This document shows positions 4,863 to 52,508 of a stretch of 64,000 nt of DNA, one piece after another. The number at the start of each line of letters is the position of its first letter. Position 1 is the stretch's first letter. The position numbers and the translations under genes are program-made. The stretch comes from a virus. The notes beneath the pieces were generated by a model. That model was not told the origin of the DNA, did not search any database, and saw only the letters and a program-made list of their open reading frames with translations. The stretch is from positions 1 through 64,000 of the IMG/VR virus record IMGVR_UViG_3300042939_000736; one strand, written 5' to 3'.

Positions 4863-6635
4863 ATGAGTCTAACAAAAGAACAAGTCATGTTAGAATATGT
4901 TAGGTGTATGAAAGATACTGAATATGCACTCAAAACATATTTACAAACATACGATAATACTGTTTCTAAGTACGTACCCTTACAACTTTTTCCCGATCAA
5001 GTATCATTATTAAAAGACTATGAAGATTATGAAGAAAATATAGCCCTGAAATATAGACAGGCTGGGGTATCAACAGTTACTGCCGCTTGGGTGTCAAAAC
5101 GACTAGTTTTTGCAAAAAAAAATCAACCCGAAAAAATATTGATCATTGCGAACAAATTAGACACCTCAATGGAAATGGCAAACAAAATAAGGGCATTTGT
5201 TGATCAGTGGCCATCTTGGGTAGGGGCCGGATTTTCGGTAGACAAAAACTCTCAAAAACATTACAAACTTATTAATGGTAGTGAAGTAAAGGCTGTTGCG
5301 ACTTCTAAAGATGCTTTGAGGGGTTTTACACCAACAATACTTGTGTTTGATGAGGCGGCATTTATTGAAGCCGATAGTGACTTTTGGGCTGCTTGTATGG
5401 CTTCATTATCAACAGGTGGTAAAGTTATAGTAGTTTCGACCCCTAACGGATACGACCCAATTTATTATGATGTTTATAACCAAGCAGTTAAAGGAATCAA
5501 CAACTTTAAAATTTCTGAAATGTATTGGTGGAGAGATCCGAGATACGCCAAAGATTTATATCTTGTACCTACAGATGACTTAGTTCATTATCTATTGAAT
5601 AAAGATCAACAGGATGAATCTAAACATATATCCTTTGCCCATGTAGATCCTTATGAAAGAAACTACGATGAAATATCCAATTATTTCAAAGATGGGTACA
5701 AACCATGTTCAACTTGGTATGAACGTATGGTGAAAAAATTAAAGTATGACAAAAGAAAAATTAACCAAGAGTTAAATTGTGAATTTTTGGGATCAGGTGA
5801 CAACGTTTTTGACAATAAACAATTAGAAGATATAAAAAATAACACCTTATGTGATCCTTCAGGAAAAATGATGGGGAATTCACTTTGGGTTTGGAAAGAT
5901 CCTATTTTGGGACATAGATACATAATGGGTGTTGACGTATCAAGAGGTGATAGTGAAGACTTCAGTTCGATACAAATCATAGATTTTGATTCAAGGGAAC
6001 AGGTCTTTGAATACGTAGGAAAAATACCTCCCGATGCTTTGGCAGAAATAGCCTACAAATGGGGTATTATGTATAATGCATTTATTGTTGTCGATATAAC
6101 AGGAGGTATGGGAATAACAACTGTTAGAAAACTTCAAGAATTAGGGTATAAAAGTTTGTATGTTGATGGTGTAGACACAACAAGTATATGGTCAAACACA
6201 ACCAAAATGGCAGATAAAATTCCAGGAATTAATTTCAATAATAAACGAGTACAAATTATTGCGGCTTTCGAAGAAGCGGTAAGACATAAGTTTAAAATAA
6301 AAAGTGTTCGTCTATACAACGAAATGAACACTTTTGTTTATATAAATGGTCGACCTGATCATCAAAAGGGACAACATGACGACCTTATTATGGGAATATC
6401 TATGGCAATTTATGTCGGTGAATCTTCGTTCACAAAATTAGAAAAAGTCGCACAACAAGCTAAAGTTATGTTGGAATCTTGGACTGTAGCTTCAAATGAC
6501 GCAGTATCTAAGGAAGTATACTTCAATCCAGTATTACCAAATTTAAATGTTAAAAGAGATCACTTTGGTAGGGAAATAAATTCAGCAACAAGAGAAGACT
6601 ATGAAAAGTATGGTTGGTTATTTGGGGGTAGGTAA
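4863..6635 (+). CDS. terL: Large terminase subunit (gp17-like DNA-packaging ATPase/nuclease)
   Basis: The 590-residue protein has the two-domain layout of T4-type large terminases. In the ATPase, a Walker A-like YRQAGVST lies near residue 64 and Walker B ILVFDEAAF near residue 159, with a coupling-type STPNG around residue 196. The C-terminal RNase H-fold nuclease starts with GVDVSRGDSED near residue 355, and a later acidic site is GQHDDLIMG near residue 504. It pumps genomic DNA into the prohead and cuts concatemers at headful. It is followed by a 57-residue gene and then portal, the same functional neighbourhood as in T4-like phages. No separate small terminase subunit is recognisable in this window. 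Confidence 0.95.
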   Translation: MSLTKEQVMLEYVRCMKDTEYALKTYLQTYDNTVSKYVPLQLFPDQVSLLKDYEDYEENIALKYRQAGVSTVTAAWVSKRLVFAKKNQPEKILIIANKLDTSMEMANKIRAFVDQWPSWVGAGFSVDKNSQKHYKLINGSEVKAVATSKDALRGFTPTILVFDEAAFIEADSDFWAACMASLSTGGKVIVVSTPNGYDPIYYDVYNQAVKGINNFKISEMYWWRDPRYAKDLYLVPTDDLVHYLLNKDQQDESKHISFAHVDPYERNYDEISNYFKDGYKPCSTWYERMVKKLKYDKRKINQELNCEFLGSGDNVFDNKQLEDIKNNTLCDPSGKMMGNSLWVWKDPILGHRYIMGVDVSRGDSEDFSSIQIIDFDSREQVFEYVGKIPPDALAEIAYKWGIMYNAFIVVDITGGMGITTVRKLQELGYKSLYVDGVDTTSIWSNTTKMADKIPGINFNNKRVQIIAAFEEAVRHKFKIKSVRLYNEMNTFVYINGRPDHQKGQHDDLIMGISMAIYVGESSFTKLEKVAQQAKVMLESWTVASNDAVSKEVYFNPVLPNLNVKRDHFGREINSATREDYEKYGWLFGGR

Positions 6636-6820: not shown

Positions 6821-6877
6821 TTATATTATAACTAACAATAAACTTTATATTAAAAAAATATAAGTTAAATTTTGAAT

Positions 6878-8698
6878 ATGGAACAAAAAGAAAAAAATTT
6901 AACAGTCTGGCAAAGATTGTCCAAAACGTTTGGACCTAATTCAACGTTAGGTATGGACGACCCTGTTTATAAGTTTGATAAAAAAGAAATATTAAAAACT
7001 ACAGATAAGTCACAATTTGAAAGAGATAAATTAGAAATACAACAAACTTTATTTCTTAATGACAATTGGAAAAAAATCGAAAACAATTTATATAGTCAAG
7101 CGGTTTATTATGAACCAAATAGAATTTCAGCTTTCTACGATTATGAATCTATGGAATATACTCCTGAAATATCAACAGCTTTGGACATATATGCCGAAGA
7201 ATCTACAACATCTAATCAAGACGGATATATTCTTCAAGTTTATTCAGAATCAAAAAGAATCAAAAGTATATTAGTCGATTTATTTAATAACAACTTAGAC
7301 ATAAATACAAACCTACAGATGTGGGTCAGAAACATGTGTAAGTATGGTGATAACTTTGTTTATTTAAAACTAGACCCTGAAAAGGGTGTTGTAAGTTGCA
7401 TGCAACTTCCAAACATTGAAATTGAAAGACTTGAACGTGGTATGGAAACAAGGTCAACAAACACCACACCATCTATGAAAGAAAAAAATCTAAGGTTTGT
7501 TTGGAAAAATAAAGACATGGAATTCAACACATGGGAAATAGCACATTTTAGATTATTGGGTGATGATAGAAAATTACCTTATGGTACTTCTATGTTAGAA
7601 AAGGCCAGGCGTATTTGGAAACAATTAGTTTTGGCTGAAGATGCGATGTTAATTTATAGAACATCAAGAGCACCTGAAAGACGTGTATTTAAAGTTTATG
7701 TTGGTAATATGGATGATAAGGATGTTGAAGCCTACGTACAAAGGGTTGCAAATAAATTCAAAAGAGATCAGATTGTTGATTCTAAAACAGGTAATGTAGA
7801 CTTAAGATTTAATCAGATGGCGGTTGATCAAGATTATTTTATTCCTGTTAGGGACGCTCAACAAACAATGCCTATTGAAACATTGGCAGGAGCCGCTAAC
7901 TTGTCTGAAATTGCCGATATTGAATACATCCAAAAAAAGTTACTTACTGCTTTGAGAATTCCAAAAGCTTATTTAGGGTTCGAAGAACCTGTTGGTGATG
8001 GTAAAAATCTTTCATTATTAGATATTAGATTTGCAAGAACAATTCATAAAATACAAAAAAGTGTTATCGCAGAATTAAATAAAATTGCTATAATACACTT
8101 ATTCCTGTTAGGGTTTGAAGATGAATTACAAAACTTTACATTAGGGTTGACTAATCCATCTAAACAAGCCGATCTTTTAATGGTTGAAGTTTGGAAAGAA
8201 AAAGTTTTATTATACAAAGACATGGTTACTGAAATTCCTAACTCATTACAACCGACATCAGCAACATGGGCTAAAAAACATATTTTTGGTTTTTCTGATG
8301 AAGAAATTAAACTTGAATTACAACAAATTAGATTAGAAAGAGCCGTTGCAGCAGAATTAGCAAATACTGCAACAATAATAACCCATACAGGATTCTTTGA
8401 TACGGTAGATAAACTTTATAAAACACAAACAGGATCCACCCAAACTGCAGGAGCCGCACCTGGAGCTGAAGGTGGGGCAGGAGCGCCACCACCTCCACCA
8501 GGAGGAGGAGCACCTCCTTCACCACCAGCAGGAGGTCCGTCTTCAGGACCACCAATTCCTGAATCATTTAAAAAAGATAATTTAAATTTATTACTTGAAA
8601 GTGACGATTTACTTGGGGATGAATTTTTAGATCTGTCTAAGGCATCAAATTCTTTGGGTGACATAGAACATGAATTAGATAAATTACTAAATAGTTAA
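6878..8698 (+). CDS. Portal protein (gp20-like)
   Basis: A 606-residue protein with T4 gp20-type portal features: conserved blocks YEPNRISAFYDYESMEYTPE, ALDIYAEES, KYGDNFVYLKLDPEKGV and a wing/stem region around GYILQVYSES. The dodecameric portal forms the DNA entry vertex and nucleates prohead assembly. I chose ATG at 6878; an in-frame TTG two codons upstream is less likely. The C-terminus (about residues 530-560) carries a Pro/Gly/Ala-rich flexible linker with runs of proline, followed by an acidic helix. T4 gp20 is about 524 residues, so this one is longer, mostly through that tail. Confidence 0.93.
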   Translation: MEQKEKNLTVWQRLSKTFGPNSTLGMDDPVYKFDKKEILKTTDKSQFERDKLEIQQTLFLNDNWKKIENNLYSQAVYYEPNRISAFYDYESMEYTPEISTALDIYAEESTTSNQDGYILQVYSESKRIKSILVDLFNNNLDINTNLQMWVRNMCKYGDNFVYLKLDPEKGVVSCMQLPNIEIERLERGMETRSTNTTPSMKEKNLRFVWKNKDMEFNTWEIAHFRLLGDDRKLPYGTSMLEKARRIWKQLVLAEDAMLIYRTSRAPERRVFKVYVGNMDDKDVEAYVQRVANKFKRDQIVDSKTGNVDLRFNQMAVDQDYFIPVRDAQQTMPIETLAGAANLSEIADIEYIQKKLLTALRIPKAYLGFEEPVGDGKNLSLLDIRFARTIHKIQKSVIAELNKIAIIHLFLLGFEDELQNFTLGLTNPSKQADLLMVEVWKEKVLLYKDMVTEIPNSLQPTSATWAKKHIFGFSDEEIKLELQQIRLERAVAAELANTATIITHTGFFDTVDKLYKTQTGSTQTAGAAPGAEGGAGAPPPPPGGGAPPSPPAGGPSSGPPIPESFKKDNLNLLLESDDLLGDEFLDLSKASNSLGDIEHELDKLLNS

Positions 8699-8719: not shown

Positions 8720-9442
8720 ATGAAATTTGGTGTATTAAAATCTAAAATAGAAAAGTGTTTAATTGAATCTTACAATAAAAATACTTTTAAAGATAATATT
8801 TTTATTTTCAATGAATTAGTAAGAAAAAATAAAAATATCAGTAAGTTATATTACTTATATGATGAATTATCATCAAAAAAAGGATTGTCAGAATCTTTGG
8901 CTAACGATTTTGTAAACGAATCCATAAATTTATACGAAAATACAATAAACAAAATCAATAAAAAACATATTGACGAAATTAATATTTGGGTCAACAATGT
9001 AGAAACAAAAAACGAATATTCTATAATTGATGACTTATTTTCTAACAATGTGGTAACATTAGAAAATAAAATTAAAAGTAGAAAACAAATTGTAGAATCA
9101 CTAAAATCTGTAGAAGTAATTTCTGAAAGTGGTAAGATAGTTCATATACCCTTGGATGATATGATAGAAGTGGCAAATAAAACAGTGAATGAATATATTT
9201 CTAAAATTAACGAATCTGAAAAAAAAGAAATTTTGAGTATAATCAACGAAGACGAAAACAAACTAAAAATAAAATTTGATTTCATCAAAGAAAATACTAT
9301 CAAAAGATTAGAAAATATTTTAGAAACTGAATCAGATGAAGAAACCAAAAAAACTATTCAAGAAACAATTCAAAAAGTAACTAAAGAAAAATTTGATAAA
9401 ATTAGTTTTGTAAAACTTAAAAGTTTAAATGAAAGTCTTTAA
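8720..9442 (+). CDS. Helical Lys/Glu-rich protein between portal and protease, 240 aa
   Basis: Unrecognised by sequence. The protein is almost entirely predicted helix with coiled-coil character, rich in Lys, Glu, Asn and Ile, and lacks Pro and Cys almost completely. Its N-terminus MKFGVLKSKIEKCLIES includes LIE, a possible gp21-type (I/L)xE cleavage site. In T4 the portal-protease interval holds the prohead core proteins gp67 and gp68, so a core or internal head protein is a reasonable inference from position. Its last 4 bases overlap the end of the convergent bS21 gene. Confidence 0.7.
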   Translation: MKFGVLKSKIEKCLIESYNKNTFKDNIFIFNELVRKNKNISKLYYLYDELSSKKGLSESLANDFVNESINLYENTINKINKKHIDEINIWVNNVETKNEYSIIDDLFSNNVVTLENKIKSRKQIVESLKSVEVISESGKIVHIPLDDMIEVANKTVNEYISKINESEKKEILSIINEDENKLKIKFDFIKENTIKRLENILETESDEETKKTIQETIQKVTKEKFDKISFVKLKSLNESL

Positions 9443-9624
9443 TCGTTTTTAAATTTTTTTTGAATATACCTTGCTTTATTTAAAATCTGTCTTTTTAAGA
9501 CAGATTTTTTTGTGAATTCTTTTCTGTTATTTAATTGACTATTTTGTCTGGTTTTAATTACCTTACTTTTAAGTTCTTTGATTGATCTTTCTATATCCCC
9601 TTTTTTTACTTTTACTATTAGCAT
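9439..9624 (-). CDS. rpsU: Ribosomal protein bS21
   Basis: The 61-residue product fits bS21 along its length: N-terminal beta start MLIVKVKKGDIERSIKELKS, then a basic helix with the RKEFTKKSV segment that corresponds to the R(R/Q)xxxxKPS(V) block of bS21, then a second basic helix KRQILNKARYIQKKFK. Length and the MLIV(K/P)VK start match Bacteroidetes forms better than the proteobacterial form. bS21 sits near the anti-Shine-Dalgarno end of 16S rRNA in the small subunit; phage copies are known and thought to redirect initiation. It is a single gene on the opposite strand inside the head block, with its own late-type box upstream. Confidence 0.82.
   Translation of the reverse strand: MLIVKVKKGDIERSIKELKSKVIKTRQNSQLNNRKEFTKKSVLKRQILNKARYIQKKFKND
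9482..9511 (+). terminator. Plus-strand terminator embedded antisense in the bS21 gene
   Basis: A perfect 12-base stem (AAAATCTGTCTT / AAGACAGATTTT) with a TTT loop is followed by more T residues on the plus strand. It lies 40 bases after the stop of the 8720-9442 gene but entirely inside the minus-strand bS21 coding sequence, over codons for the KKSVLKRQILNK region. It should end plus-strand transcription from portal and its neighbour. Confidence 0.75.
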
Positions 9625-9640
9625 ATGTGTTTAATAATTT

Positions 9641-9648
9641 TATTTATA
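9641..9648 (-). promoter_or_regulatory. TATAAATA late-type promoter box for bS21
   Basis: Read on the minus strand this is an exact TATAAATA, 16 bases before the bS21 ATG. It is the T4 late consensus and suggests bS21 is made late, with the virion proteins. Confidence 0.55.
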
Positions 9649-9713
9649 TTGATATATATTACAAATTTAAGTAAACTTATCCAAAATAAACTATTTTACT
9701 ATGGAAAAAAAAT

Positions 9714-10181
9714 ATGAAAAAAGGAAAAACTTCCAAAATCAATGGATTTAAATCTGCCAAAATTTCCTATGGAACTGTAGATTCCAAAGAATTCAAATCC
9801 CTTTATCTAAACCTACAAACTTGGGTAGAACCAAAAAAAGAAAGTGAAAGTTGGAACAGAGTAGTACTGAATATGAATAGATCTATAAAACATTCGATTT
9901 ACCAAAATATAGATAAAAAAATTTTTGACGAAAAATTTATTGTTGATATGGACTTAAGAACTAGTGGACTACAGTTGAAAAAAAAATCATTTATGAATTT
10001 AGAAATAAACTTATATCTTGTTGAAGAAATTGATTTCAAGTCATTAAAATTAAAAAAATCTTTAAAAAATTTAATAAAAAACATTTACGACGAAGTACTA
10101 TTCAAAAATGAATATTTTAAGTTTTATCTCACTAAAACTGGAAATTCAAAGTTAGTTAAGGTAAAAACCGAAAAAGTTTAA
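9714..10181 (+). CDS. Hypothetical basic protein upstream of the prohead protease, 155 aa
   Basis: Unrecognised. A Lys-rich N-terminus (MKKGKTSKINGFKSAK) precedes a mixed alpha/beta domain with alternating hydrophobic strands (RVVLNMNRSI, FIVDMDLRTS, MNLEINLYLV) and a C-terminal helix. An out-of-frame ATG at 9701 opens only a short reading frame, so 9714 is preferred. It sits 21 bases before the protease gene, so a head-assembly role is likely by position only. Confidence 0.7.
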   Translation: MKKGKTSKINGFKSAKISYGTVDSKEFKSLYLNLQTWVEPKKESESWNRVVLNMNRSIKHSIYQNIDKKIFDEKFIVDMDLRTSGLQLKKKSFMNLEINLYLVEEIDFKSLKLKKSLKNLIKNIYDEVLFKNEYFKFYLTKTGNSKLVKVKTEKV

Positions 10182-10202: not shown

Positions 10203-10919
10203 ATGAAAATATTAGGACCTAATGAAATTGGAAAAGGTATTCTTATTGAATACGATGCGGGTTATGTAAATCCCAGATCATCAAACAACCAATATATAAT
10301 GGAATCTAAAAACTTTTTAGACTATTCTAAACCCTTTGAGTTTTACGCTGTATTACAAAAATATAACACACCAAATAGGAACGGTAGAATTTATCCTGAA
10401 AAGGTTTTAAAAAGAGAAGCTGAAAATTACAAAAAAATGATTGAGAAAGGTACTTCACTTTCTGAACTTAATCACCCTGAATCGTCACTGATAGATTTAG
10501 ACAGAGTTTCCCACATAATAACTGAAATATGGTGGGATGGACCAACTTTACTTGGTAAGTTAAAATTATTAACAAGTCCTGGTTTTCATGAACGTGGCGT
10601 AGTATCGACAAAGGGCGATTTAGCGGCTAATTATCTTCGTCAAGGTGTTACTTTGGGTATATCATCTCGTGGTGTTGGATCTTTAAAAAAAGTTGGTGAA
10701 CAAAACGAAGTCCAAGATGACTTTGAATTAATTTGTTTTGACTTAGTTTCATCACCTTCTACACCGGGAGCTTATTTATTTTTAGATAAAAATGATAGAC
10801 AAAAATTTGATGAAAATTTAGAAGAAGATAAAAGGATGGCTTTGGAAAGAAATGTTGGGGAAAGTGGTAACAAATCTCTTGACTTAATGAAAAGGTTGTC
10901 CGATTATTTAGGAAAATAA
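10203..10919 (+). CDS. Prohead core protease (gp21-like, serine protease)
   Basis: A 238-residue protein with T4 gp21/S78-type motifs: NTPNRNGRIYPEKVL near residue 58, catalytic His in LNHPES near residue 88 and catalytic Ser in LGISSRGVG near residue 151, followed by FDLVSSPSTPGAY, the usual end of the catalytic core. This enzyme is activated in the prohead and cleaves scaffold, internal proteins and the major capsid protein at (I/L)xE sites. It sits between portal and scaffold/capsid genes as in T4. Confidence 0.93.
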   Translation: MKILGPNEIGKGILIEYDAGYVNPRSSNNQYIMESKNFLDYSKPFEFYAVLQKYNTPNRNGRIYPEKVLKREAENYKKMIEKGTSLSELNHPESSLIDLDRVSHIITEIWWDGPTLLGKLKLLTSPGFHERGVVSTKGDLAANYLRQGVTLGISSRGVGSLKKVGEQNEVQDDFELICFDLVSSPSTPGAYLFLDKNDRQKFDENLEEDKRMALERNVGESGNKSLDLMKRLSDYLGK

Positions 10920-13092: not shown

Positions 13093-14982
13093 ATGGGAGC
13101 ATTATTAGAATCAGGTCTTGTTGGTAACATCGGGTTAAAACACCTAAAAGTTATCAAAGAAGATACAATTAACAAATGGGACAGATTAGGGTTCCTTGAA
13201 GGTCTTAAAGGCCACCTAAAAGAAAACGTAGCACAGTTATATGAAAACCAAGCTTCTTTCTTGATTAACGAAGCAACTTCAGAAACTTCTAACGGAGCTT
13301 TTGAAACAGTTGTATTCCCTATCGTAAGAAGAGTTTTTTCTAAATTGTTAGCAAACGATATCGTATCAGTACAAGCAATGAACTTACCTATTGGTAAATT
13401 GTTCTACTTCGTACCTCGTATCCAAGGATACAATCCTAACGCGGCAAATCCTGATGGGACACACTATTCACCAATAGGATCACCTCAAGCAATTGCAGAT
13501 GGTTACAACTCACTTGGTCAAGGTTACCCTAACGCTAATTTACCTGCTGGTCAGACTAACGCACCATATACAAAAAATCTTTATGATTTATTTTATGAAG
13601 GTAATGAGGCAGGTTTAGATCCTCCAGGATTGTTTGACTATTCTAAAGGTCAATGGACTGCAGTTACTCAACCGGCTATCGCTATGGTATGGTCAGGTTC
13701 TGATTTAACTCCAGCGACAAATCAATTTGACGGTGAAGTTACAAGAAAAATTATCGTTAAACTTTGTGGATTTAATAACGGAGGTGTTGGTAAATTAATC
13801 GGACCTGATGGTAATGAGATAGATACAGAAACTTTCTTATCTGATCTTAAAATTGTTGCTGACTTAAACGTATTAACAGGATCTACAGGATGTCCTAATT
13901 TAGATGAGATTGGAAACACAAACTTGTCAGCACCATTATTGTTTAGAGTTGTAACTCAAATTTATGGTAAAGGAATTGTACAACCAACATCTAATACTCA
14001 AGGAACAACTTTCCCTACAACAGGAAATGGTGGGTCTTACAACAATATCTGTTCACAGGATGGTTGTATCTATTTAGAAGTTGATCTTTCTTGTCCAGCA
14101 TGTGCTGATTGTGGAGCTACTACATTAGATGGTTACACAGGAACTACAATTGGTGAAATAACAGAAAATAATGATACATTAGGACAATCTCCATTCCAAG
14201 CAATTTATAGAAGATATAAAAACTTAGAATTCGAAGATCAAATTGGTGAGGTTTCTTTTGATCTTGAGTCAGTGACTGTTTCTGTAACAGAAAGAAAATT
14301 AAGAGCACAATGGTCACCTGAATTAGCTCAGGACGTTGCAGCATTCCATAACATCGATGCAGAAGCTGAATTGACAGCGTTGTTGTCAGAACAAGTAGCT
14401 GCTGAAATCGATCGTGAAATTTTACGTGACTTGAGAAAAGGAGCGGCATGGAATTTACGTTGGGACTACAACGGATGGAGAAGACTTCAATTGACTACAT
14501 CTTATACACAAAAAGATTGGAACCAAACTTTGATCACAGCGATCAATCAATTGTCAGCACAAATCCACAAATCTACTTTGAGAGGTGGTGCTAACTGGAT
14601 CGTTGTTTCTTCTGAAGTTTCTGCAATCTTTGATGATCTTGAATACTTCCACGTATCAAATGCTTCACCAGAGCAAGATCAATACAACATGGGTATCGAA
14701 AGAGTAGGTACGTTGTCAGGACGTTACCAAGTTTACCGTGATCCTTACTTCCCGCCTAACCAAGTGTTAATCGGTCACAAAGGAACATCATTGTTAGACA
14801 CAGGTTACATTTACGCACCGTATGTACCTCTACAATTGACACCTACAATGTATAACCCATTCAACTTCACACCTATCAAAGGTATTATGACAAGATACGC
14901 TAAGAAAATGGTTAACAACCGTTTCTACGGACGTATCACAGTTGATGGTGTTAGAACGTTTGACTTAAGAGAATTGAGATAA
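13093..14982 (+). CDS. Major capsid protein (gp23-like)
   Basis: A 629-residue protein with gp23-type blocks: FPIVRRVFSKLLANDIVSVQ, FYFVPRIQGYN, the central EVSFDLESVTVSVTERKLRA, and AEAELTALLSEQVAAEIDRE with DLRKGAAWN after it, then WIVVSSEVSAIFDDL and the C-terminal MTRYAKKMVNNRFYGRITVD. It forms the hexamers of the T4-type head after gp21 cleavage of its N-terminal targeting segment. T4 gp23 is 521 residues; the extra length here lies around residues 150-360 and includes a Cys-rich loop (CSQDGCIYLEVDLSCPACAD), probably a surface insertion domain. Codon use is the most optimised in the window (many ATC, AAC, CGT codons), consistent with very high expression. Confidence 0.95.
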   Translation: MGALLESGLVGNIGLKHLKVIKEDTINKWDRLGFLEGLKGHLKENVAQLYENQASFLINEATSETSNGAFETVVFPIVRRVFSKLLANDIVSVQAMNLPIGKLFYFVPRIQGYNPNAANPDGTHYSPIGSPQAIADGYNSLGQGYPNANLPAGQTNAPYTKNLYDLFYEGNEAGLDPPGLFDYSKGQWTAVTQPAIAMVWSGSDLTPATNQFDGEVTRKIIVKLCGFNNGGVGKLIGPDGNEIDTETFLSDLKIVADLNVLTGSTGCPNLDEIGNTNLSAPLLFRVVTQIYGKGIVQPTSNTQGTTFPTTGNGGSYNNICSQDGCIYLEVDLSCPACADCGATTLDGYTGTTIGEITENNDTLGQSPFQAIYRRYKNLEFEDQIGEVSFDLESVTVSVTERKLRAQWSPELAQDVAAFHNIDAEAELTALLSEQVAAEIDREILRDLRKGAAWNLRWDYNGWRRLQLTTSYTQKDWNQTLITAINQLSAQIHKSTLRGGANWIVVSSEVSAIFDDLEYFHVSNASPEQDQYNMGIERVGTLSGRYQVYRDPYFPPNQVLIGHKGTSLLDTGYIYAPYVPLQLTPTMYNPFNFTPIKGIMTRYAKKMVNNRFYGRITVDGVRTFDLRELR

Positions 14983-23163: not shown

Positions 23164-23913
23164 CTATTTTAACATATCATTAATTATTTCTTGATAAATT
23201 TTCTTGTATCTCTTCAAAGAATTTCTAATTTCTTTTGTAGAAAGATTAGTCATTTCTCGTATTTCAAACAAAACAACATTTTTATTAAACTTGTTGTTGT
23301 TCGAATTATCAACAAATATATTATTATAGTTACGGAATATTTCCATAAGAGCTTGACCTAGCTTCATTTCTTGTTCACTAATTGATTTATCGTCCATAGA
23401 ATCTGTAAGTTTAATAATAAATTTATTTATTATTTCTTCAGTAGATATACTATCATCGTCTATATGATAAATCATATCAGGGGCATTATGTAAATCCGCA
23501 GAAATATCTTCATATGAAACTTTACGATTCATATCTTTTTGATCTTTCAGTATTTGGCCCATTAAATAATTTTTACATATAGTACCAAAATATGAATATG
23601 CCTTTTTTTCTTTTGATGGTTTAAATTTATCAATTTTTGTCATCAAAAAAGAATGAGTGTCAACATGGATTTCATTAAAATCCATATCTTTTCTGTATAA
23701 TTTATATCGTCTTATAATTGACGATATCATTTTATCCAAGGGAAATCTTAAATATTCATTATAAATTTTATTCTTTTCATCCATAGTGTTCGCAGTTAAA
23801 AACATCCTAACTGCGTTTTCTTCTGGTTCATCAAAATAATTATTTAACTTAGGTTTCCTTCCCTTCTTTTTCTTTTCATTCTGGGTTTCGTTTAAATCTA
23901 ATTTTAATTCCAT
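23164..23913 (-). CDS. gp55-like late-transcription sigma factor
   Basis: Residues 55-130 have sigma region 2 character: a basic/aromatic core IISSIIRRYKLYRKDMDF, then THSFLMTKIDKFKPSKEKKA and YSYFGTICKNYLMGQILKDQ, the AYSYF(G/T)xxxKNxL pattern of T4 gp55-type factors. The C-terminus (TNLSTKEIRNSLKRYKK) looks like a helix-turn-helix. T4 gp55 is 185 residues; this one is 249, with a basic N-terminal extension. T4 gp55 directs host RNA polymerase to TATAAATA late promoters, and the window contains many TATAAATA/TATTTATA boxes. The sliding clamp and gp33-like coactivator are not visible here. Confidence 0.82.
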   Translation of the reverse strand: MELKLDLNETQNEKKKKGRKPKLNNYFDEPEENAVRMFLTANTMDEKNKIYNEYLRFPLDKMISSIIRRYKLYRKDMDFNEIHVDTHSFLMTKIDKFKPSKEKKAYSYFGTICKNYLMGQILKDQKDMNRKVSYEDISADLHNAPDMIYHIDDDSISTEEIINKFIIKLTDSMDDKSISEQEMKLGQALMEIFRNYNNIFVDNSNNNKFNKNVVLFEIREMTNLSTKEIRNSLKRYKKIYQEIINDMLK

Positions 23914-42566: not shown

Positions 42567-45500
42567 ATGATGAGTTTTAAACTTTCTGGTGGCGTTGAAG
42601 TTCTTGGGTTTATATCTCCAACAGAACCCTCTGATGAATATCCAGTTATAGATCCTTTATATGGGATTGATGGATTTAGAAACGTAAACAATTTGTCAGA
42701 TCTTGACACTATTCCTTTTTTAAGAAGAAGGGCAGGTATGGTCGCGGGTGTAAGTGGGGGAACTCAATACTATAAATTAAATCTTCCTCCTTGGAATTTT
42801 ACTATATCAGATTGGAGCCCATTTTCAATTACAGGTGGAACCGGTACTTCTGGCACATCGGGATCAAGCGGGTCAAGTGGAACATCTGGAGCTCAAGGAA
42901 CAAGTGGATCTGCCGGTACTAATGGAACTTCGGGTTCTGACGGATCTAGTGGCACCAACGGAACATCAGGAACTGATGGAACTAGTGGTTCTAACGGTAC
43001 CGATGGAACTAGTGGTACAAACGGAACAAACGGAACAAACGGTACAAGTGGAATATCGGGCGTAAACGGTACAAGTGGTACATCAGGAACTAATGGAACT
43101 AGTGGAACAAATGGTACATCAGGAACTAATGGAACTAGTGGAACAAATGGTACATCAGGAACTAATGGAACAGATGGGACTTCAGGTAGTAACGGAACAA
43201 ATGGTACATCAGGAACTAATGGAACAAATGGAACATCAGGAACTAACGGTACTGATGGAACTTCAGGTACTAATGGAACTTCAGGTACTAATGGAACTTC
43301 AGGTACTAATGGAACAGATGGTACTAGCGGAACAAACGGAACAGATGGTACAAGCGGTACGAATGGAACTGACGGCACTAGCGGTACTAATGGTACTAAT
43401 GGAACTTCAGGTACTAATGGAACTTCAGGTACTAATGGAACAGATGGTACTAGCGGAACAAACGGAACAGATGGTACAAGCGGTACGAATGGAACTTCAG
43501 GAACAAATGGTACAGATGGAACTTCAGGAACAAATGGTACAGATGGAACTTCAGGAACAAACGGAACTTCAGGAACAAATGGTACATCAGGAACAAATGG
43601 TACTAGCGGCACAAACGGAAGTTCAGGAACAAACGGAACAAACGGAAGTTCAGGAACAAACGGAACTTCAGGAACAAATGGAACAAACGGAAGCTCAGGA
43701 ACAAATGGTACTAATGGGTCAAGTGGAACAAACGGTACAAGCGGCACAGGTGGAACTTCGGGGACAAATGGGACTAGCGGGACTAACGGTACAGACGGGA
43801 CTAGCGGTTTATCGGGTGTAAACGGAACATCAGGTACTAATGGTACAGACGGTTCGAGCGGAACTAATGGGACTGATGGGTCAAGTGGAACTAATGGGAC
43901 TAGTGGAACATCAGGTACTAACGGAACTTCAGGAACGAATGGAACTTCAGGAAGTAATGGTACTGATGGTACAAGTGGTACTGATGGTACTGATGGATCT
44001 TCAGGAACAAATGGTACAAGCGGTACGAATGGAACAGATGGGACAAGCGGAACTAATGGTACGGACGGGTCAAGTGGAACTAATGGTACGGACGGTACTA
44101 ATGGAACAGATGGAACCTCAGGAACTAATGGTACTGATGGAACAAGTGGTACTGATGGTACTGATGGATCTTCAGGAACAGATGGGACAAGCGGAACTAA
44201 TGGTACTGACGGCACTTCAGGTACAAACGGAACAGATGGGACAAGTGGAACTAATGGTACGGACGGTACATCAGGTACAAACGGTACAGATGGAACTTCA
44301 GGTACTGACGGAACTAGCGGTACGAATGGAACGGATGGTACAAGCGGAACAGATGGTACAAGCGGTACGAATGGTACTGACGGAACTAGCGGAACAAATG
44401 GTACGGACGGAACTAGCGGAACAAATGGTACGGACGGCACTTCAGGGACTAACGGTACTGATGGCACAAATGGAACAGATGGATCTTCAGGTACAAATGG
44501 TACTGACGGAACAAGTGGTACTAATGGAACTGATGGATCTTCAGGAACAGATGGTACTAGTGGTTTATCTGGTGTAAATGGTACATCAGGAACTAACGGG
44601 ACATCAGGTACAAACGGTACTGATGGAACTTCAGGAACTAATGGTACTAGCGGCACAAATGGGACTGATGGTACTTCAGGAACTAATGGTACGGACGGTA
44701 CAAGTGGAACAGATGGAACTTCAGGAACGGATGGGTCAAGTGGTACAGATGGAACAAGTGGGTCTTCAGGAACAAATGGAACGGACGGAACTTCAGGAAC
44801 AAATGGAACTAACGGAACAGATGGTACTAGCGGAACAAATGGAACAGATGGTACTAGCGGAACAAATGGTACAGATGGTACTAGCGGAACTAACGGAAGT
44901 GACGGAACTTCAGGAACTAATGGTACTAACGGCTCAAGTGGAACTGATGGTACAAATGGTTCTTCAGGTACAAATGGAACGGATGGTTCTAGCGGTACAG
45001 ATGGTTCAAGTGGTACTAATGGTACTGACGGTAGTAGCGGAACTGATGGAACTTCAGGTACCGATGGTACGAATGGATCAAGCGGAACAGATGGAACTAG
45101 TGGAACAGACGGAACAAATGGTTCAAGTGGTACTAATGGGACTTCAGGTACAGATGGGACTAATGGGACAGACGGAACCTCAGGAACTGACGGAACAAAT
45201 GGTTCAAGCGGAACAGACGGGACTAGCGGTACTAATGGTACTAATGGTAGTTCAGGTACAGATGGTACTAGCGGAACAAACGGTACTGATGGGACTTCAG
45301 GTACAGATGGTACTAATGGAACTTCAGGTACAGATGGTACTAGCGGTACTGACGGAACTAACGGGACAGATGGAACTAGCGGAACTAACGGAACAGATGG
45401 TACTAGCGGGACAGATGGAACTTCAGGTACGAATGGTACAGATGGAACTAGTGGAACAGATGGTACAAACGGAACTAGTGGAACAGATGGAACAAACGGA

Positions 45501-48500
45501 ACTAGTGGAACAGATGGAACAAGTGGAACTAATGGTACTAATGGAACCTCAGGAACTAATGGTACGGATGGTACAAGCGGGACTAATGGGACTAACGGAA
45601 CGGATGGAACTAGCGGTACCAATGGTACAAATGGTAGTTCAGGCACTAACGGAACTTCAGGAACAAATGGAACAGATGGTACTAGTGGAACTAATGGTAC
45701 GGATGGAACTAGCGGTACTAACGGAACAAATGGTTCGAGTGGAACAAATGGTACAGATGGTACTAGCGGGACAGATGGTACTAGCGGAACTGATGGAACA
45801 AATGGTTCTTCAGGTACTAATGGTACTAACGGATCAAGCGGAACTGATGGAACAAGTGGAACTAATGGTACAGATGGAACTTCAGGTACAAATGGTACAG
45901 ACGGGTCTTCAGGAACAAACGGAACTAATGGTACTAGTGGAACTAATGGTACAGACGGAACTAGCGGAACAGATGGTACTTCAGGGACTAATGGTACTGA
46001 TGGGTCAAGTGGAACTAACGGAACTTCGGGTACAAATGGAACAGATGGAACTTCAGGAACAAATGGAACAAGTGGGACAGATGGTACTAATGGTACTGAC
46101 GGTAGTAGCGGAACTAATGGAACTGACGGAACATCAGGCACCAACGGTACAGATGGTTCAAGTGGTACTGATGGGACAAGTGGTTTGTCTGGTGTAAATG
46201 GAACATCAGGGACAAATGGAACTAACGGTACTAATGGGACTTCGGGAACTAACGGTACAGATGGTTCAAGTGGTACTAATGGTACGGACGGTACTAGCGG
46301 AACTAATGGAACAGATGGAACGAGCGGAACTGATGGTACAAATGGAACGAGCGGAACTAATGGTACAAATGGAACGGATGGTACTAGCGGCACAAATGGA
46401 ACAGACGGAACGAGCGGAACTGATGGTACAAATGGATCAAGTGGTACAAACGGAACAGATGGTTCAAGTGGTACTAATGGTACGGACGGAACTTCAGGTA
46501 CAAATGGGACTGATGGTACAAGTGGTACTAACGGAACAAATGGTACGGATGGTACTAGTGGAACTGATGGTACTTCAGGAACTAACGGAACAAACGGTTC
46601 AAGTGGTACAGATGGTACTAGCGGTTCAAATGGAACTAACGGTACTAATGGTACAAGTGGAACAAATGGTACCAACGGAACTAGCGGAACAAATGGTACC
46701 AATGGTTCTTCAGGTACTAATGGAACTAATGGTACTTCAGGAACTAACGGTACAAATGGGACTTCAGGCACTAACGGAACAAACGGATCATCAGGCACAA
46801 ACGGTACTAATGGAACTTCAGGAACTGACGGTACGTCGGGAACTAATGGTTCAAGTGGTACCAACGGTACTAGCGGAACTAATGGGACATCAGGTACGAA
46901 TGGTACGAATGGTACTAGCGGAACTAATGGAACGTCAGGTACCAACGGAACATCAGGAACTAATGGTACGAATGGCACTAGCGGTACGAACGGAACTAAT
47001 GGAACTTCAGGAACCAATGGTACGAATGGAACTAACGGTACAAATGGGACTTCGGGAACTAATGGTACAAATGGAACTTCAGGGACTAACGGTACCAATG
47101 GGACTTCAGGAACAAATGGAACCAACGGTACAAGCGGAACTGATGGAACTTCGGGTACAAATGGTACAAACGGTACTTCAGGTACTAATGGAACATCGGG
47201 AACAAACGGAACTTCCGGTACGAATGGAACAAATGGCTCAAGCGGCACTAATGGAACATCAGGTACAAACGGAACGGACGGAACTTCAGGAACAAATGGA
47301 ACTAGCGGAACCAATGGAACTTCGGGCACTAATGGAACAAATGGATCAAGTGGTACGAATGGAACTTCAGGAACGAATGGTACCAATGGAACATCAGGTA
47401 CTAATGGGACTTCTGGTACAAACGGAACAAATGGTTCAAGTGGGACTAACGGTACATCAGGTACGAATGGAACTTCTGGCACTAATGGTACGAATGGGTC
47501 TAGCGGAACAAATGGAACTTCAGGTACAAACGGAACGAATGGTACAAACGGAACATCAGGTACGAACGGAACTAGTGGAACAAACGGGACTAATGGTACT
47601 AGCGGAACAAATGGTACAAACGGAACATCAGGAACCAATGGAACCAATGGTACAAACGGAACTTCAGGTACAAATGGAACCAATGGAACATCGGGCACTA
47701 ACGGTACTTCAGGTACTAACGGTACGAATGGAACATCAGGTACTAACGGAACTAATGGTACTTCAGGTACGAATGGCACAAGCGGAACCAATGGTACAAA
47801 CGGAACAAATGGAACTTCGGGCACAAATGGATCAAGTGGTACGAATGGAACTTCAGGAACTAATGGTACTAACGGTACAAGTGGAACCAATGGTACAAAC
47901 GGAACATCAGGTACGAATGGAACTTCAGGTACCAACGGAACAAATGGAACATCAGGAACGAATGGTACTTCGGGAACTAACGGGACAAATGGTACGTCGG
48001 GCACAAATGGTACCGATGGGACTTCAGGTACAAATGGAACCAATGGTACTAGCGGGACTAATGGAACAAACGGGACTAGCGGGACCAATGGAACAAACGG
48101 GACTTCAGGTACGAACGGAACCAATGGATCAAGTGGGACAAACGGAACATCAGGTACTAACGGTACCAACGGAACATCAGGAACTAACGGGACAAATGGA
48201 ACGTCAGGTACTAATGGGACATCTGGCACTAATGGTACTTCAGGAACCAACGGGACTAGTGGTACGAACGGAACAAATGGTTCAAGTGGAACTAATGGAA
48301 CATCAGGCACCAACGGGACTTCAGGTACTAATGGTACTAACGGAACTTCGGGAACTAATGGGACTAGCGGTACTAACGGAACTAATGGAACTTCAGGTAC
48401 AAATGGAACTTCGGGTACTAATGGGACAAGTGGTACAAATGGAACTAATGGTACATCAGGAACCAATGGCACTTCGGGAACTAACGGTACATCAGGTACG

Positions 48501-51500
48501 AATGGAACAAATGGTAGTAGCGGAACAAACGGAACATCAGGAACTAACGGTACTAATGGGTCTTCGGGAACAAATGGTACGAGTGGAACTAATGGTACTA
48601 GCGGAACTAATGGTACAAATGGTACGAGTGGAACTAATGGAACATCAGGGACTAATGGAACCAACGGAACCAATGGATCAAGTGGGACAAACGGAACATC
48701 AGGTACTAACGGTACCAACGGAACATCAGGAACTAACGGGACAAATGGAACGTCAGGTACTAATGGAACTAGCGGCACAAATGGAACTAGCGGCACAAAT
48801 GGAACAAACGGTTCAAGTGGTACTAACGGGACAAATGGAACCTCAGGTACTAACGGCACAAACGGCACATCAGGAACCAACGGTACTAGCGGCACAAATG
48901 GAACAAACGGAACTAGTGGAACAAACGGAACTTCAGGTACTAATGGTACAAATGGAACTAGCGGTACTAACGGAACTTCAGGTACTAATGGAACATCAGG
49001 TACTAACGGAACAAACGGAACTTCAGGTACGAATGGAACTTCGGGTACTAATGGAACAAATGGTTCAAGTGGAACTAACGGTACTAGCGGAACGAATGGA
49101 ACTAGTGGTACTAACGGTACAAATGGTACTAGTGGAACAAATGGGACATCAGGAACTAATGGTACGAACGGCACATCAGGTACCAATGGTACAAATGGAA
49201 CATCAGGTACAAACGGAACTAGCGGTACGAATGGAACCAATGGAACTAATGGTACAAATGGGACTTCAGGAACTAACGGTACTAATGGTACGTCGGGTAC
49301 AAATGGAACAAATGGAACTTCAGGTACCAACGGAACCAATGGATCAAGTGGTACAAACGGAACGTCAGGCACAAATGGTACGAACGGTACAAATGGAACT
49401 TCAGGAACCAATGGAACTTCGGGCACAAACGGAACTAGTGGAACAAACGGAACTTCAGGTACAAATGGAACGAATGGAACCTCAGGAACAAATGGTACTA
49501 ACGGCACATCAGGAACAAACGGTACATCAGGTACAAATGGAACTAATGGCACATCAGGGACAAATGGTACTAACGGAACTAGTGGAACAAACGGCACAAA
49601 TGGTTCAAGTGGAACCAACGGTACTAATGGAACCTCAGGAACTAATGGTACGTCAGGAACTAATGGTACAAACGGATCAAGTGGAACAAACGGTACATCA
49701 GGAACTAACGGAACAAATGGTACATCGGGTACTAACGGCACAAACGGAACGTCAGGAACAAATGGTACTTCAGGCACTAACGGAACCAATGGAACAAACG
49801 GAACTTCAGGTACGAATGGAACAAACGGTACTAGCGGAACTAATGGTACTTCAGGTACTAATGGAACTTCGGGAACGAACGGAACAAATGGTACTAGCGG
49901 AACAAATGGTACTTCAGGTACAAATGGAACTAGTGGGACTAACGGTACTAATGGGACTTCAGGAACAAACGGAACTAATGGTACATCAGGTACGAATGGA
50001 ACTAGCGGAACAAACGGAACTTCAGGAACAAATGGAACCAATGGAACATCAGGGACTAATGGTACAAACGGCACTTCAGGTACTAATGGAACAAATGGAA
50101 CCTCAGGGACTAATGGTACAAACGGCACTTCAGGTACTAATGGAACATCAGGAACAAATGGTACAAATGGAACTTCGGGGACAAACGGTACTTCAGGAAC
50201 TAATGGTACAAACGGTACTTCGGGCACGAATGGAACCAGCGGAACAAATGGTACATCAGGAACTAACGGGACTAGCGGAACTAATGGAACATCAGGTACA
50301 AATGGTACAAACGGATCTTCAGGGACTAACGGAACGAATGGAACCTCAGGAACTAACGGAACGAATGGAACCTCAGGAACTAACGGAACAAATGGTACAT
50401 CGGGTACGAATGGAACTAATGGTACATCGGGTACGAATGGAACAAATGGAACATCAGGTACTAACGGTACTTCAGGAACAAACGGTACTAACGGAACTTC
50501 AGGTACAAACGGTACAAATGGGACTTCAGGTACAAACGGAACTAGCGGAACAAATGGAACAAATGGAACCTCAGGGACTAATGGAACTAGTGGTGTTAGT
50601 GGTTTAAATGGTACAAACGGAACTTCAGGAACCAATGGGACTAATGGAACATCGGGTACTAGAGGTACTTCAGGTACTAATGGGACAAATGGTTCTTCAG
50701 GAACTAGTGGAGGTGGAGGTGGAGGCGCAATTTCTATTTATGACGAAGGAATTTTAGTTCAATCAAGTGCCACAAGTTTAAATTTTGTCGGTGTGTGTAC
50801 TACAGCATCATCAGGCACAAGCGGATCAGTCACAGTAAATATTGGTTGTGGATGTGAATACGAATATATTAATATAGCGTCAAACTCAGGTTATTTAGAA
50901 TTAGACAAACCAACCGATTTTACTAAAATATGGATTGGTAATAAATTGGGTGGTTGGAATTGTTGTCCTTGGGATTATTTTGAACCAGGGGTTAATGGTA
51001 ATTTGTCAAGAACAAGATATCCTTATTATGGTGTGCCATTACCAACATCTTTATATCCAGGAGATGTTGTTAGAATTTGTGGTTCAATAACACAAATAAA
51101 TCAGGGTGGTAATCCATGTTTAACTTATGATGATATAAGAGTTGGAGTGTCTTATATCAGTTGTTCTGATTCTAGTGCAATTATATTTGCAAATACATTG
51201 ATACCGGCTACTGATCTTATTTTAAATGGTAATGGTACGGCTTGTTTTAATTTAGAAGTTGGTATAGACGTTACCCTACCGGCTTGTGATACTATGTTAA
51301 CAGTTAATATTTCAACAACACAAGAAAGTGAATGTGATAGAACTTTACACTTCAGTTATACGCTTAACGCCGATAGATATTGTCCAACTTTTGATCCAAC
51401 CCCAAATCTTGTAGCACAAAATTGTTGTGATCCTTTGATCAAAGAAGTAATTCCAAAAGGTACATTACAAGTCGGTGATTTTTATGCCGATAGTGAAGGA

Positions 51501-52508
51501 AACTGTTGGGAAATTTTACAAAAAACGGGTGATGCTCCTGACTATACAAGAATAGTTTCCGCGACTTATAATTCATGTTCGGCTTGTATAACAGCAAATC
51601 CATGTCCTCAAAATATAGTGTTTGAATCTTGTTGTGAACAGGCCCCTGAAACATTTACAGGTTCATTACCTGGTATTAATGTAGGTGATGTGTTTGTTGA
51701 TACTTATGGATTCTGTTGGAGCGCAACATCATTGACTGTATCACCAGTTTCTGGTATCGTATATGTTGACACTAATTATGGAAACGTAGATTGTTTGAAT
51801 TGTTTAACAGGTAACCCATGTCCTAATGTTTTTGAATTACAACCTTGTTGTAAGTTTTTGGGAGGTCCTTTCTTTGTAACTGCAGCATCTTTAGGATACA
51901 CACCAGTTGTAGGTGAAGTATTTGTTGATACATGGGGTAATTGTTGGACAGTTTCGAAAGATCAAGCGACAGGTCAAAATGTGACCGCTCCGTGGATTGT
52001 TCATGATACAAGTTACACAAGTTGTGAGTTGTGTTTAGCTTCCAACCCATGTCAAGATGACACAATAATTTATGCCACAGTAAGAAATTGTTGTTCAGGT
52101 GACGTTGAAGTTGTTGCGGTACCTATGGTTTATTTAACTGGTTTAGAAACCACGATATCTTTCAGTCAACCAGGAACACCTAATGTTTATGAGTGTTGGG
52201 AAGTTTTAGGTTGGGAATTAGTTGACACGCCAACGATAACTTTCTATGCGTTAGGTGGGTTCTACATCGATTGTGTAAGATGTCTAATCGCGAATCCTTG
52301 TCCTGACTTTTACGAAGCAATAGATTGTTGTGGAACTTTACCTAACGAAGTTGTTTTAAGCAATGGACCGACAGGAAGTGTTTTTGTTGATACTTTAGGA
52401 CGTTGTTGGACTGTAGGTTTAGCAGTTGCCGGTCCTGCGACAATAACATCGAGTGGTAACTATTTAGATTGTACAGAATGTATAAACGTTAATCCATGTT
52501 CAGCATAA
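42567..52508 (+). CDS. Giant collagen-like fibre protein (about 877 Gly-Thr-Xaa triplets)
   Basis: 3313 residues, by far the largest gene. Residues 1-89 are a globular attachment head, with GFRNVNNLSDLDTIPFLRRR. Residues 90-2720 are unbroken Gly-X-Y triplets in which X is almost always Thr or Ser and Y is Ser, Asn or Asp, without Pro or charged Lys/Arg except one GTR near the end. A Gly-rich hinge (GTSGGGGGGAIS) leads to a C-terminal head of about 590 residues with five repeated Cys-rich modules ending (C)xxxNPCP and containing GD(V/F)(F/Y)xDxxGxCW. Collagen-like stalks on phage fibres are known, but this length and the lack of Pro are unusual. The terminator follows directly. Product: probable long tail fibre or whisker. 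Confidence 0.88.
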   Translation: MMSFKLSGGVEVLGFISPTEPSDEYPVIDPLYGIDGFRNVNNLSDLDTIPFLRRRAGMVAGVSGGTQYYKLNLPPWNFTISDWSPFSITGGTGTSGTSGSSGSSGTSGAQGTSGSAGTNGTSGSDGSSGTNGTSGTDGTSGSNGTDGTSGTNGTNGTNGTSGISGVNGTSGTSGTNGTSGTNGTSGTNGTSGTNGTSGTNGTDGTSGSNGTNGTSGTNGTNGTSGTNGTDGTSGTNGTSGTNGTSGTNGTDGTSGTNGTDGTSGTNGTDGTSGTNGTNGTSGTNGTSGTNGTDGTSGTNGTDGTSGTNGTSGTNGTDGTSGTNGTDGTSGTNGTSGTNGTSGTNGTSGTNGSSGTNGTNGSSGTNGTSGTNGTNGSSGTNGTNGSSGTNGTSGTGGTSGTNGTSGTNGTDGTSGLSGVNGTSGTNGTDGSSGTNGTDGSSGTNGTSGTSGTNGTSGTNGTSGSNGTDGTSGTDGTDGSSGTNGTSGTNGTDGTSGTNGTDGSSGTNGTDGTNGTDGTSGTNGTDGTSGTDGTDGSSGTDGTSGTNGTDGTSGTNGTDGTSGTNGTDGTSGTNGTDGTSGTDGTSGTNGTDGTSGTDGTSGTNGTDGTSGTNGTDGTSGTNGTDGTSGTNGTDGTNGTDGSSGTNGTDGTSGTNGTDGSSGTDGTSGLSGVNGTSGTNGTSGTNGTDGTSGTNGTSGTNGTDGTSGTNGTDGTSGTDGTSGTDGSSGTDGTSGSSGTNGTDGTSGTNGTNGTDGTSGTNGTDGTSGTNGTDGTSGTNGSDGTSGTNGTNGSSGTDGTNGSSGTNGTDGSSGTDGSSGTNGTDGSSGTDGTSGTDGTNGSSGTDGTSGTDGTNGSSGTNGTSGTDGTNGTDGTSGTDGTNGSSGTDGTSGTNGTNGSSGTDGTSGTNGTDGTSGTDGTNGTSGTDGTSGTDGTNGTDGTSGTNGTDGTSGTDGTSGTNGTDGTSGTDGTNGTSGTDGTNGTSGTDGTSGTNGTNGTSGTNGTDGTSGTNGTNGTDGTSGTNGTNGSSGTNGTSGTNGTDGTSGTNGTDGTSGTNGTNGSSGTNGTDGTSGTDGTSGTDGTNGSSGTNGTNGSSGTDGTSGTNGTDGTSGTNGTDGSSGTNGTNGTSGTNGTDGTSGTDGTSGTNGTDGSSGTNGTSGTNGTDGTSGTNGTSGTDGTNGTDGSSGTNGTDGTSGTNGTDGSSGTDGTSGLSGVNGTSGTNGTNGTNGTSGTNGTDGSSGTNGTDGTSGTNGTDGTSGTDGTNGTSGTNGTNGTDGTSGTNGTDGTSGTDGTNGSSGTNGTDGSSGTNGTDGTSGTNGTDGTSGTNGTNGTDGTSGTDGTSGTNGTNGSSGTDGTSGSNGTNGTNGTSGTNGTNGTSGTNGTNGSSGTNGTNGTSGTNGTNGTSGTNGTNGSSGTNGTNGTSGTDGTSGTNGSSGTNGTSGTNGTSGTNGTNGTSGTNGTSGTNGTSGTNGTNGTSGTNGTNGTSGTNGTNGTNGTNGTSGTNGTNGTSGTNGTNGTSGTNGTNGTSGTDGTSGTNGTNGTSGTNGTSGTNGTSGTNGTNGSSGTNGTSGTNGTDGTSGTNGTSGTNGTSGTNGTNGSSGTNGTSGTNGTNGTSGTNGTSGTNGTNGSSGTNGTSGTNGTSGTNGTNGSSGTNGTSGTNGTNGTNGTSGTNGTSGTNGTNGTSGTNGTNGTSGTNGTNGTNGTSGTNGTNGTSGTNGTSGTNGTNGTSGTNGTNGTSGTNGTSGTNGTNGTNGTSGTNGSSGTNGTSGTNGTNGTSGTNGTNGTSGTNGTSGTNGTNGTSGTNGTSGTNGTNGTSGTNGTDGTSGTNGTNGTSGTNGTNGTSGTNGTNGTSGTNGTNGSSGTNGTSGTNGTNGTSGTNGTNGTSGTNGTSGTNGTSGTNGTSGTNGTNGSSGTNGTSGTNGTSGTNGTNGTSGTNGTSGTNGTNGTSGTNGTSGTNGTSGTNGTNGTSGTNGTSGTNGTSGTNGTNGSSGTNGTSGTNGTNGSSGTNGTSGTNGTSGTNGTNGTSGTNGTSGTNGTNGTNGSSGTNGTSGTNGTNGTSGTNGTNGTSGTNGTSGTNGTSGTNGTNGSSGTNGTNGTSGTNGTNGTSGTNGTSGTNGTNGTSGTNGTSGTNGTNGTSGTNGTSGTNGTSGTNGTNGTSGTNGTSGTNGTNGSSGTNGTSGTNGTSGTNGTNGTSGTNGTSGTNGTNGTSGTNGTNGTSGTNGTSGTNGTNGTNGTNGTSGTNGTNGTSGTNGTNGTSGTNGTNGSSGTNGTSGTNGTNGTNGTSGTNGTSGTNGTSGTNGTSGTNGTNGTSGTNGTNGTSGTNGTSGTNGTNGTSGTNGTNGTSGTNGTNGSSGTNGTNGTSGTNGTSGTNGTNGSSGTNGTSGTNGTNGTSGTNGTNGTSGTNGTSGTNGTNGTNGTSGTNGTNGTSGTNGTSGTNGTSGTNGTNGTSGTNGTSGTNGTSGTNGTNGTSGTNGTNGTSGTNGTSGTNGTSGTNGTNGTSGTNGTNGTSGTNGTNGTSGTNGTNGTSGTNGTSGTNGTNGTSGTNGTSGTNGTNGTSGTNGTSGTNGTSGTNGTSGTNGTSGTNGTNGSSGTNGTNGTSGTNGTNGTSGTNGTNGTSGTNGTNGTSGTNGTNGTSGTNGTSGTNGTNGTSGTNGTNGTSGTNGTSGTNGTNGTSGTNGTSGVSGLNGTNGTSGTNGTNGTSGTRGTSGTNGTNGSSGTSGGGGGGAISIYDEGILVQSSATSLNFVGVCTTASSGTSGSVTVNIGCGCEYEYINIASNSGYLELDKPTDFTKIWIGNKLGGWNCCPWDYFEPGVNGNLSRTRYPYYGVPLPTSLYPGDVVRICGSITQINQGGNPCLTYDDIRVGVSYISCSDSSAIIFANTLIPATDLILNGNGTACFNLEVGIDVTLPACDTMLTVNISTTQESECDRTLHFSYTLNADRYCPTFDPTPNLVAQNCCDPLIKEVIPKGTLQVGDFYADSEGNCWEILQKTGDAPDYTRIVSATYNSCSACITANPCPQNIVFESCCEQAPETFTGSLPGINVGDVFVDTYGFCWSATSLTVSPVSGIVYVDTNYGNVDCLNCLTGNPCPNVFELQPCCKFLGGPFFVTAASLGYTPVVGEVFVDTWGNCWTVSKDQATGQNVTAPWIVHDTSYTSCELCLASNPCQDDTIIYATVRNCCSGDVEVVAVPMVYLTGLETTISFSQPGTPNVYECWEVLGWELVDTPTITFYALGGFYIDCVRCLIANPCPDFYEAIDCCGTLPNEVVLSNGPTGSVFVDTLGRCWTVGLAVAGPATITSSGNYLDCTECINVNPCSA
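42834..50730 (+). repeat. Gly-Thr-Xaa coding repeat region
   Basis: About 7.9 kb of 9-base-periodic coding sequence. Amino acid sequence is nearly invariant but third codon positions are scrambled, so most stretches are not exact DNA repeats. Exact longer copies do occur: 105 bases at 43266-43370 and 43392-43496 (offset 126), and 104 bases at 48114-48217 and 48663-48766 (offset 549). Hydrophobic landmark units G(L/I)SGVNG occur at 43050, 43806, 44562 and 46182, with GVSGLNG at 50592. Confidence 0.95.

Follow-up and report, generated by a model that had tools for sequence, protein, structure and literature searches.

The DNA analyzed here (the window) comprises bases 1-64,000 of a 290,710-bp virus record (IMG/VR IMGVR_UViG_3300042939_000736) and encodes a small bS21 gene on the minus strand (9439-9624) within a block of head genes on the plus strand. 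On one side of this gene lie the genes for a T4-type large terminase (TerL, 4863-6635), a portal protein of the T4 gp20 type (6872-8698; PF07230, E 3e-76) and a protein of 240 aa (8720-9442), the last being convergent with bS21, with overlapping stop codons. On the other side follow a strongly conserved divergent gene of 155 aa (9714-10181, plus strand), a prohead protease (Peptidase_S77, 10203-10919; E 1e-22) and the major head protein (13093-14982). A preliminary description had pointed to the linkage with head genes and to the minus-strand position between portal and protease; both are supported here, yet this arrangement has already been published. Chen et al. 2022 (PMC9723584) reported 47 Bacteroidetes phage genomes with a reverse-strand bS21 inside the head-gene block. 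These phages have genomes of ~300 kb, their bS21 lies among TerL, portal, protease and MCP together with an opposite-strand partner gene termed bS21_CN, and in the phage proteins an aromatic residue at position 54 is kept and the N-terminal helix has diverged. The phage studied here (~300 kb, 31% GC) resembles the phages of that study (clades a-e) in the reverse-strand position of bS21 among the same four genes, in the opposite-strand partner and in the conserved equivalent of Tyr54, and no architectural difference was found. It thus belongs to a known kind of phage whose core has been described, and the divergent 155-aa gene is probably the published bS21_CN. Promoters, rpsU and autoregulation are not mentioned by Chen et al. 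2022 (PMC9723584). From the kinship to their phages and from the style of the genome we infer a Bacteroidetes-type host, in agreement with the earlier proposal. Among GenBank phages no match to the head region of the window was found, and bS21 was only ~41-51% identical to that of three uncultured GenBank phages; IMG/VR contained many relatives. Elsewhere in the window, positions 42567-52508 (plus strand) form a single open reading frame of 3313 aa, opposite to which another frame of 2580 aa is open (42893-50635); the 3313-aa product is probably repetitive or of unusual composition.

The bS21 gene encodes a protein of 61 aa (MLIVKVKKGDIERSIKELKSKVIKTRQNSQLNNRKEFTKKSVLKRQILNKARYIQKKFKND) whose family assignment was confirmed by a match to Pfam S21 (PF01165) of 28.8 bits (gathering score 27, E 1e-6) and by bS21 of Flavobacterium johnsoniae as the best solved match (7JIL chain z; E 1e-6; alignment over residues 1-56 with ~46% identity). 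It was the only S21 match in the whole record. The span originally given for the gene, 9439-9648, proved correct for the part up to 9624, and the remainder consists of leader sequence with the TATAAATA box. Among relatives dN/dS is ~0.16 with synonymous sites near saturation, which identifies phage bS21 as a maintained gene, and by this measure it is under strong purifying selection. Tyr53, the equivalent of the F. johnsoniae Tyr54 that stacks on the anti-Shine-Dalgarno (anti-SD) sequence, is invariant across 23 aligned relatives, and a rough pattern search placed Tyr, Phe or His at this position in 72 of 76 distinct proteins. The N-terminal helix has diverged, with host residues R21, F23, G27 and T28 replaced by S, V, R and Q in the alignment, and most phage copies are one residue shorter near position 10 than F. 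johnsoniae bS21. The bS21 family has a fold of two helices; an AF2 model of the isolated protein consists of a single long helix (residues 11-59, pTM 0.48), from which the ribosome-bound shape may differ.

In a phylogenetic tree (122 rows, 64 columns) the phage bS21 proteins formed one group (100/99) apart from 81 Bacteroidota bS21 proteins; with just 64 columns the tree is poorly resolved inside. Two sister lineages of the phage have lost the gene. In one of them (L120, L143, L148, L152, L159, L200, L290-L295, L297-L299, L302 and L310, several of which are the same contigs) bS21 is absent or only 7-12 codons remain as a stub, as at L120:4764-4860, and no S21 match was found anywhere in a 296-kb relative of this lineage. 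An intron in L120-type genes (GTGTGAC after codon 8; group II or other) was considered and rejected, as Rfam gave no match and a downstream half of bS21 was not found. In the other lineage (L130, L155, L163) an internal deletion left the 3′ end of bS21 alone. In view of these losses, bS21 is useful but dispensable. Both lineages retain the divergent gene, GTTTATTTT and most of the upstream element that the two genes share, which therefore probably serves more than bS21 alone.

The element in question is 43 bp long (GTTTATTTT-N24-TATnTATCAA, 9649-9691, minus strand) and unique in the genome, where it scored 57 as compared to -17 for the second best site. Its two conserved ends were exactly 33 bp apart in all 36 distinct intergenic sequences, and between them A/T-rich matches occur; the flanking spacer bases vary. 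A scan of IMG/VR detected the element in at least 120 stretches; of those retrieved, almost every one borders on bS21 or the divergent gene, and a few are matches by chance. Read on the strand of bS21, the element includes TAAATTTG (9669-9662), which matches TAnnTTTG and fits the -7 element TAHHTTTG described for Flavobacterium (PMC6847099), making it a candidate host-type (sigma-ABfr) -7 element for bS21, with GTTTA (9687-9691, minus strand) at the place where a -33 box would be expected. Among 62 distinct elements only 47 retain the G of this -7 box, and some more distant relatives carry TATATTTG 6-7 bases before the bS21 ATG. In the phage genome host-type promoter matches number 12 in sense orientation including that of bS21, 4 in antisense and 1.5 in shuffles. 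The roughly dozen TTT[GA]-N15-19-TAnnTTTG matches mostly precede small ORFs (e.g. at 131098, 170483, 208280 and 284401 of the whole record), which are likely early genes. On the opposite strand, the reverse complement of GTTTATTTT, AAAATAAAC (9683-9691), lies 23-31 nt before the ATG of the divergent gene and is a candidate promoter element; it is kept ~20 nt before this ATG even in distant relatives, and AATAAAC occurs before genes 15 times in sense and 4 times in antisense orientation (2.1 when shuffled). The 43-bp element may serve both genes, or it may serve the divergent gene instead of bS21. TTG..TATATATCAA might be viewed as a palindromic operator; the palindrome is imperfect, and the bases beside TTG are variable. 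For the divergent protein a confident alpha/beta model was obtained (pLDDT 88.8), but structure searches with it stayed at noise level (best E 0.011 in Foldseek, Z 7.5 in VIA) and family searches gave nothing convincing.

Closer to bS21 lies a stretch of its predicted 5′ leader (9625-9648, minus strand), which is devoid of a Shine-Dalgarno (SD) sequence. As the preliminary description had stated, it contains TATAAATA (9648-9641, 16 nt 5′ of the ATG), a sequence that was taken there for a late-type promoter. That reading, in which a T4-type late box would drive bS21 as a late gene, did not withstand comparison and appears to us very improbable. TATAAATA occurs 114 times in the whole genome; near start codons it is found 10 times in sense and 28 times in antisense orientation, mostly as the reverse complement of a sense motif TATTTAT(A), and upstream of bS21 it is kept in just 3 of 33 distinct relatives. 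A de novo motif search returned TATATTTAT instead, at a median of 24 nt before the start. TATTTAT itself, the promoter-like motif that dominates in this phage, is the enriched word 8-45 nt before genes with an intergenic leader (66 of 156 in sense, 18 in antisense, 7.7 in shuffles), and is located mostly 10-29 nt upstream of start codons. Gene calls for these genome-wide counts were a simple longest-ORF set, and the promoter classes rest on sequence. Within 45 nt upstream, sense TATTTAT is conserved among distinct relatives before TerL (17/17), the 240-aa gene (29/29), the protease (26/27) and the gene at 11268 (18/18), and it also precedes head-region genes in relatives that share only ~50% identity in the partner protein. 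In contrast, it was found before bS21 in none of 33 distinct relatives, and before the divergent gene in none of 32. Judging from the genes that carry it TATTTAT might be a late promoter, and it occurs in all parts of the genome.

The T4 late promoter (TATAAATA, gp55) has two parallels here, namely a short A/T-only box near head-gene starts and a possible late sigma factor, even if the box of this phage is sense TATTTAT and bS21 lacks it. An ORF of 249 aa (23164-23913, minus strand) weakly matched the profile of gp55, the late sigma factor of T4 (23383-23709, E 2.8e-4), a match that hmmscan did not reproduce, and the sigma reading is tentative for both reasons. In the most distant relative, L314, TATTTAT is present in the bS21 leader, unlike in the other relatives. 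These two observations, as well as the presence of TATAAATA itself, would speak for a late box at bS21, as would the detection of bS21 transcripts together with head-gene transcripts in lake metatranscriptomes, from which late co-expression was reported (Chen et al. 2022, PMC9723584). Given the latter report, bS21 may be expressed late by another route.

Duplex energies with the anti-SD sequence were calculated using the generic Bacteroidetes 16S tail. None of 339 ORF leaders of the phage genome paired at less than -10 kcal/mol, and ~50-60% of leader bases are A, which bears out the earlier characterization of the genome as SD-poor with A-rich leaders. In Flavobacteriia, rpsU is autoregulated via an extended SD that is read by bS21-free ribosomes; such ribosomes of F. 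johnsoniae favour the SD-bearing rpsU and do worse on SD-less mRNAs (PMC9976891). We found an extended SD in all 80 fetched Flavobacteriia rpsU leaders, with a median duplex energy of -19.5 kcal/mol, whereas the 32 distinct phage bS21 leaders had none (median +1.6, minimum -5.1 kcal/mol). The phage gene differs from Flavobacteriia rpsU in this and in its N-terminal helix (F. johnsoniae, 7JIL; PMC9976891), and shares with it the family and the anti-SD-stacking tyrosine. Sampling Bacteroidota more widely gave 27 of 56 rpsU leaders below -13 kcal/mol, based on a rough selection rule and with some starts possibly wrong, and the rpsU leader of L384, the host bS21 that the tree places nearest the phage proteins, also lacks an SD. 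A strong SD is therefore not universal in Bacteroidota rpsU, and the contrast matters only with a host of the SD kind. Should the host be a Flavobacteriia-like one, phage bS21 would stand outside its feedback loop. The new finding, at the level of sequence, is a bS21 gene that lacks both the promoter box of the head genes and the feedback switch with which many Bacteroidetes regulate bS21, i.e. the extended SD.

These features point to a model, to which we assign a probability of about 0.5, in which synthesis of phage bS21 escapes host feedback and the protein, once on 30S subunits, hides the anti-SD and silences host rpsU. Phage bS21 would most likely swap with host bS21 on the 30S subunit, with Tyr53 packing against the 3′ tail of the 16S rRNA. 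Since this residue is kept, phage-loaded ribosomes should keep the anti-SD hidden, and they would stay efficient on the SD-less, A-rich mRNAs of the phage. Escape from host control might be twofold, through the SD-less leader and through a conserved upstream element of its own that has TAnnTTTG, a host-type -7 box, and no TATTTAT. With the anti-SD hidden by phage bS21, translation of host rpsU would be blocked: as the phage protein fills bS21-free ribosomes, host rpsU would be turned off and synthesis of phage bS21 would stay up, amounting to a one-way takeover. Incorporation, anti-SD hiding, rpsU silencing and timing are all predicted steps in this scheme. A fuller version, in which the SD-free bS21 breaks the host loop so that the takeover becomes self-reinforcing, and in which the 43-bp element times bS21 together with the 155-aa partner gene, perhaps ahead of the head genes, is tentative and we lean against it. 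Pelagiphage HTVC008M likewise carries its own bS21, acquired from its Pelagibacter host, and this protein enters E. coli ribosomes, which speaks for the model (Mizuno et al. 2019, PMC6375957). Translation by those ribosomes was nearly abolished (PMC6375957), which counts against our preferred model; HTVC008M differs from the present phage in infecting another host phylum. Further points against the model are the loss of bS21 from two sister lineages, the imperfect conservation of the -7 G, the chance that the 43-bp element serves the divergent gene instead, and those Bacteroidota rpsU leaders that have no strong SD.

Two other functions have to be considered. Chen et al. 2022 suggested that ribosomes carrying the substituted phage bS21 with its diverged N-terminal helix prefer phage late mRNAs. 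The helix of the protein studied here departs from the host sequence at the residues for which Chen et al. noted divergence, and the separate grouping of the phage proteins in the tree agrees with a distinct function. However, the leaders of phage genes lack an SD and are rich in A, just like the published host ones, and because of this resemblance no sequence feature was found that phage bS21 could select; we regard such a preference as rather doubtful. Alternatively, the phage might merely top up bS21 as host synthesis fails, leaving ribosome preference unchanged. Retention of the Tyr54 equivalent, the poor performance of bS21-free ribosomes on SD-less mRNAs and the dispensability of bS21 in two lineages would all fit such a supply function, but the protein seems to be more than a copy, given its consistent N-terminal divergence and its deep split from the host bS21s, and we consider this function unlikely.

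Among the ribosomal proteins encoded by viruses, bS21 of phages is the most common. For this phage, the correction of the promoter reading is of consequence since a sequence-based argument for a late gene would have rested on TATAAATA. In Flavobacteriia rpsU needs an exposed anti-SD and phage bS21 does not, and with this difference the idea of a specialised ribosome becomes testable with reporters.
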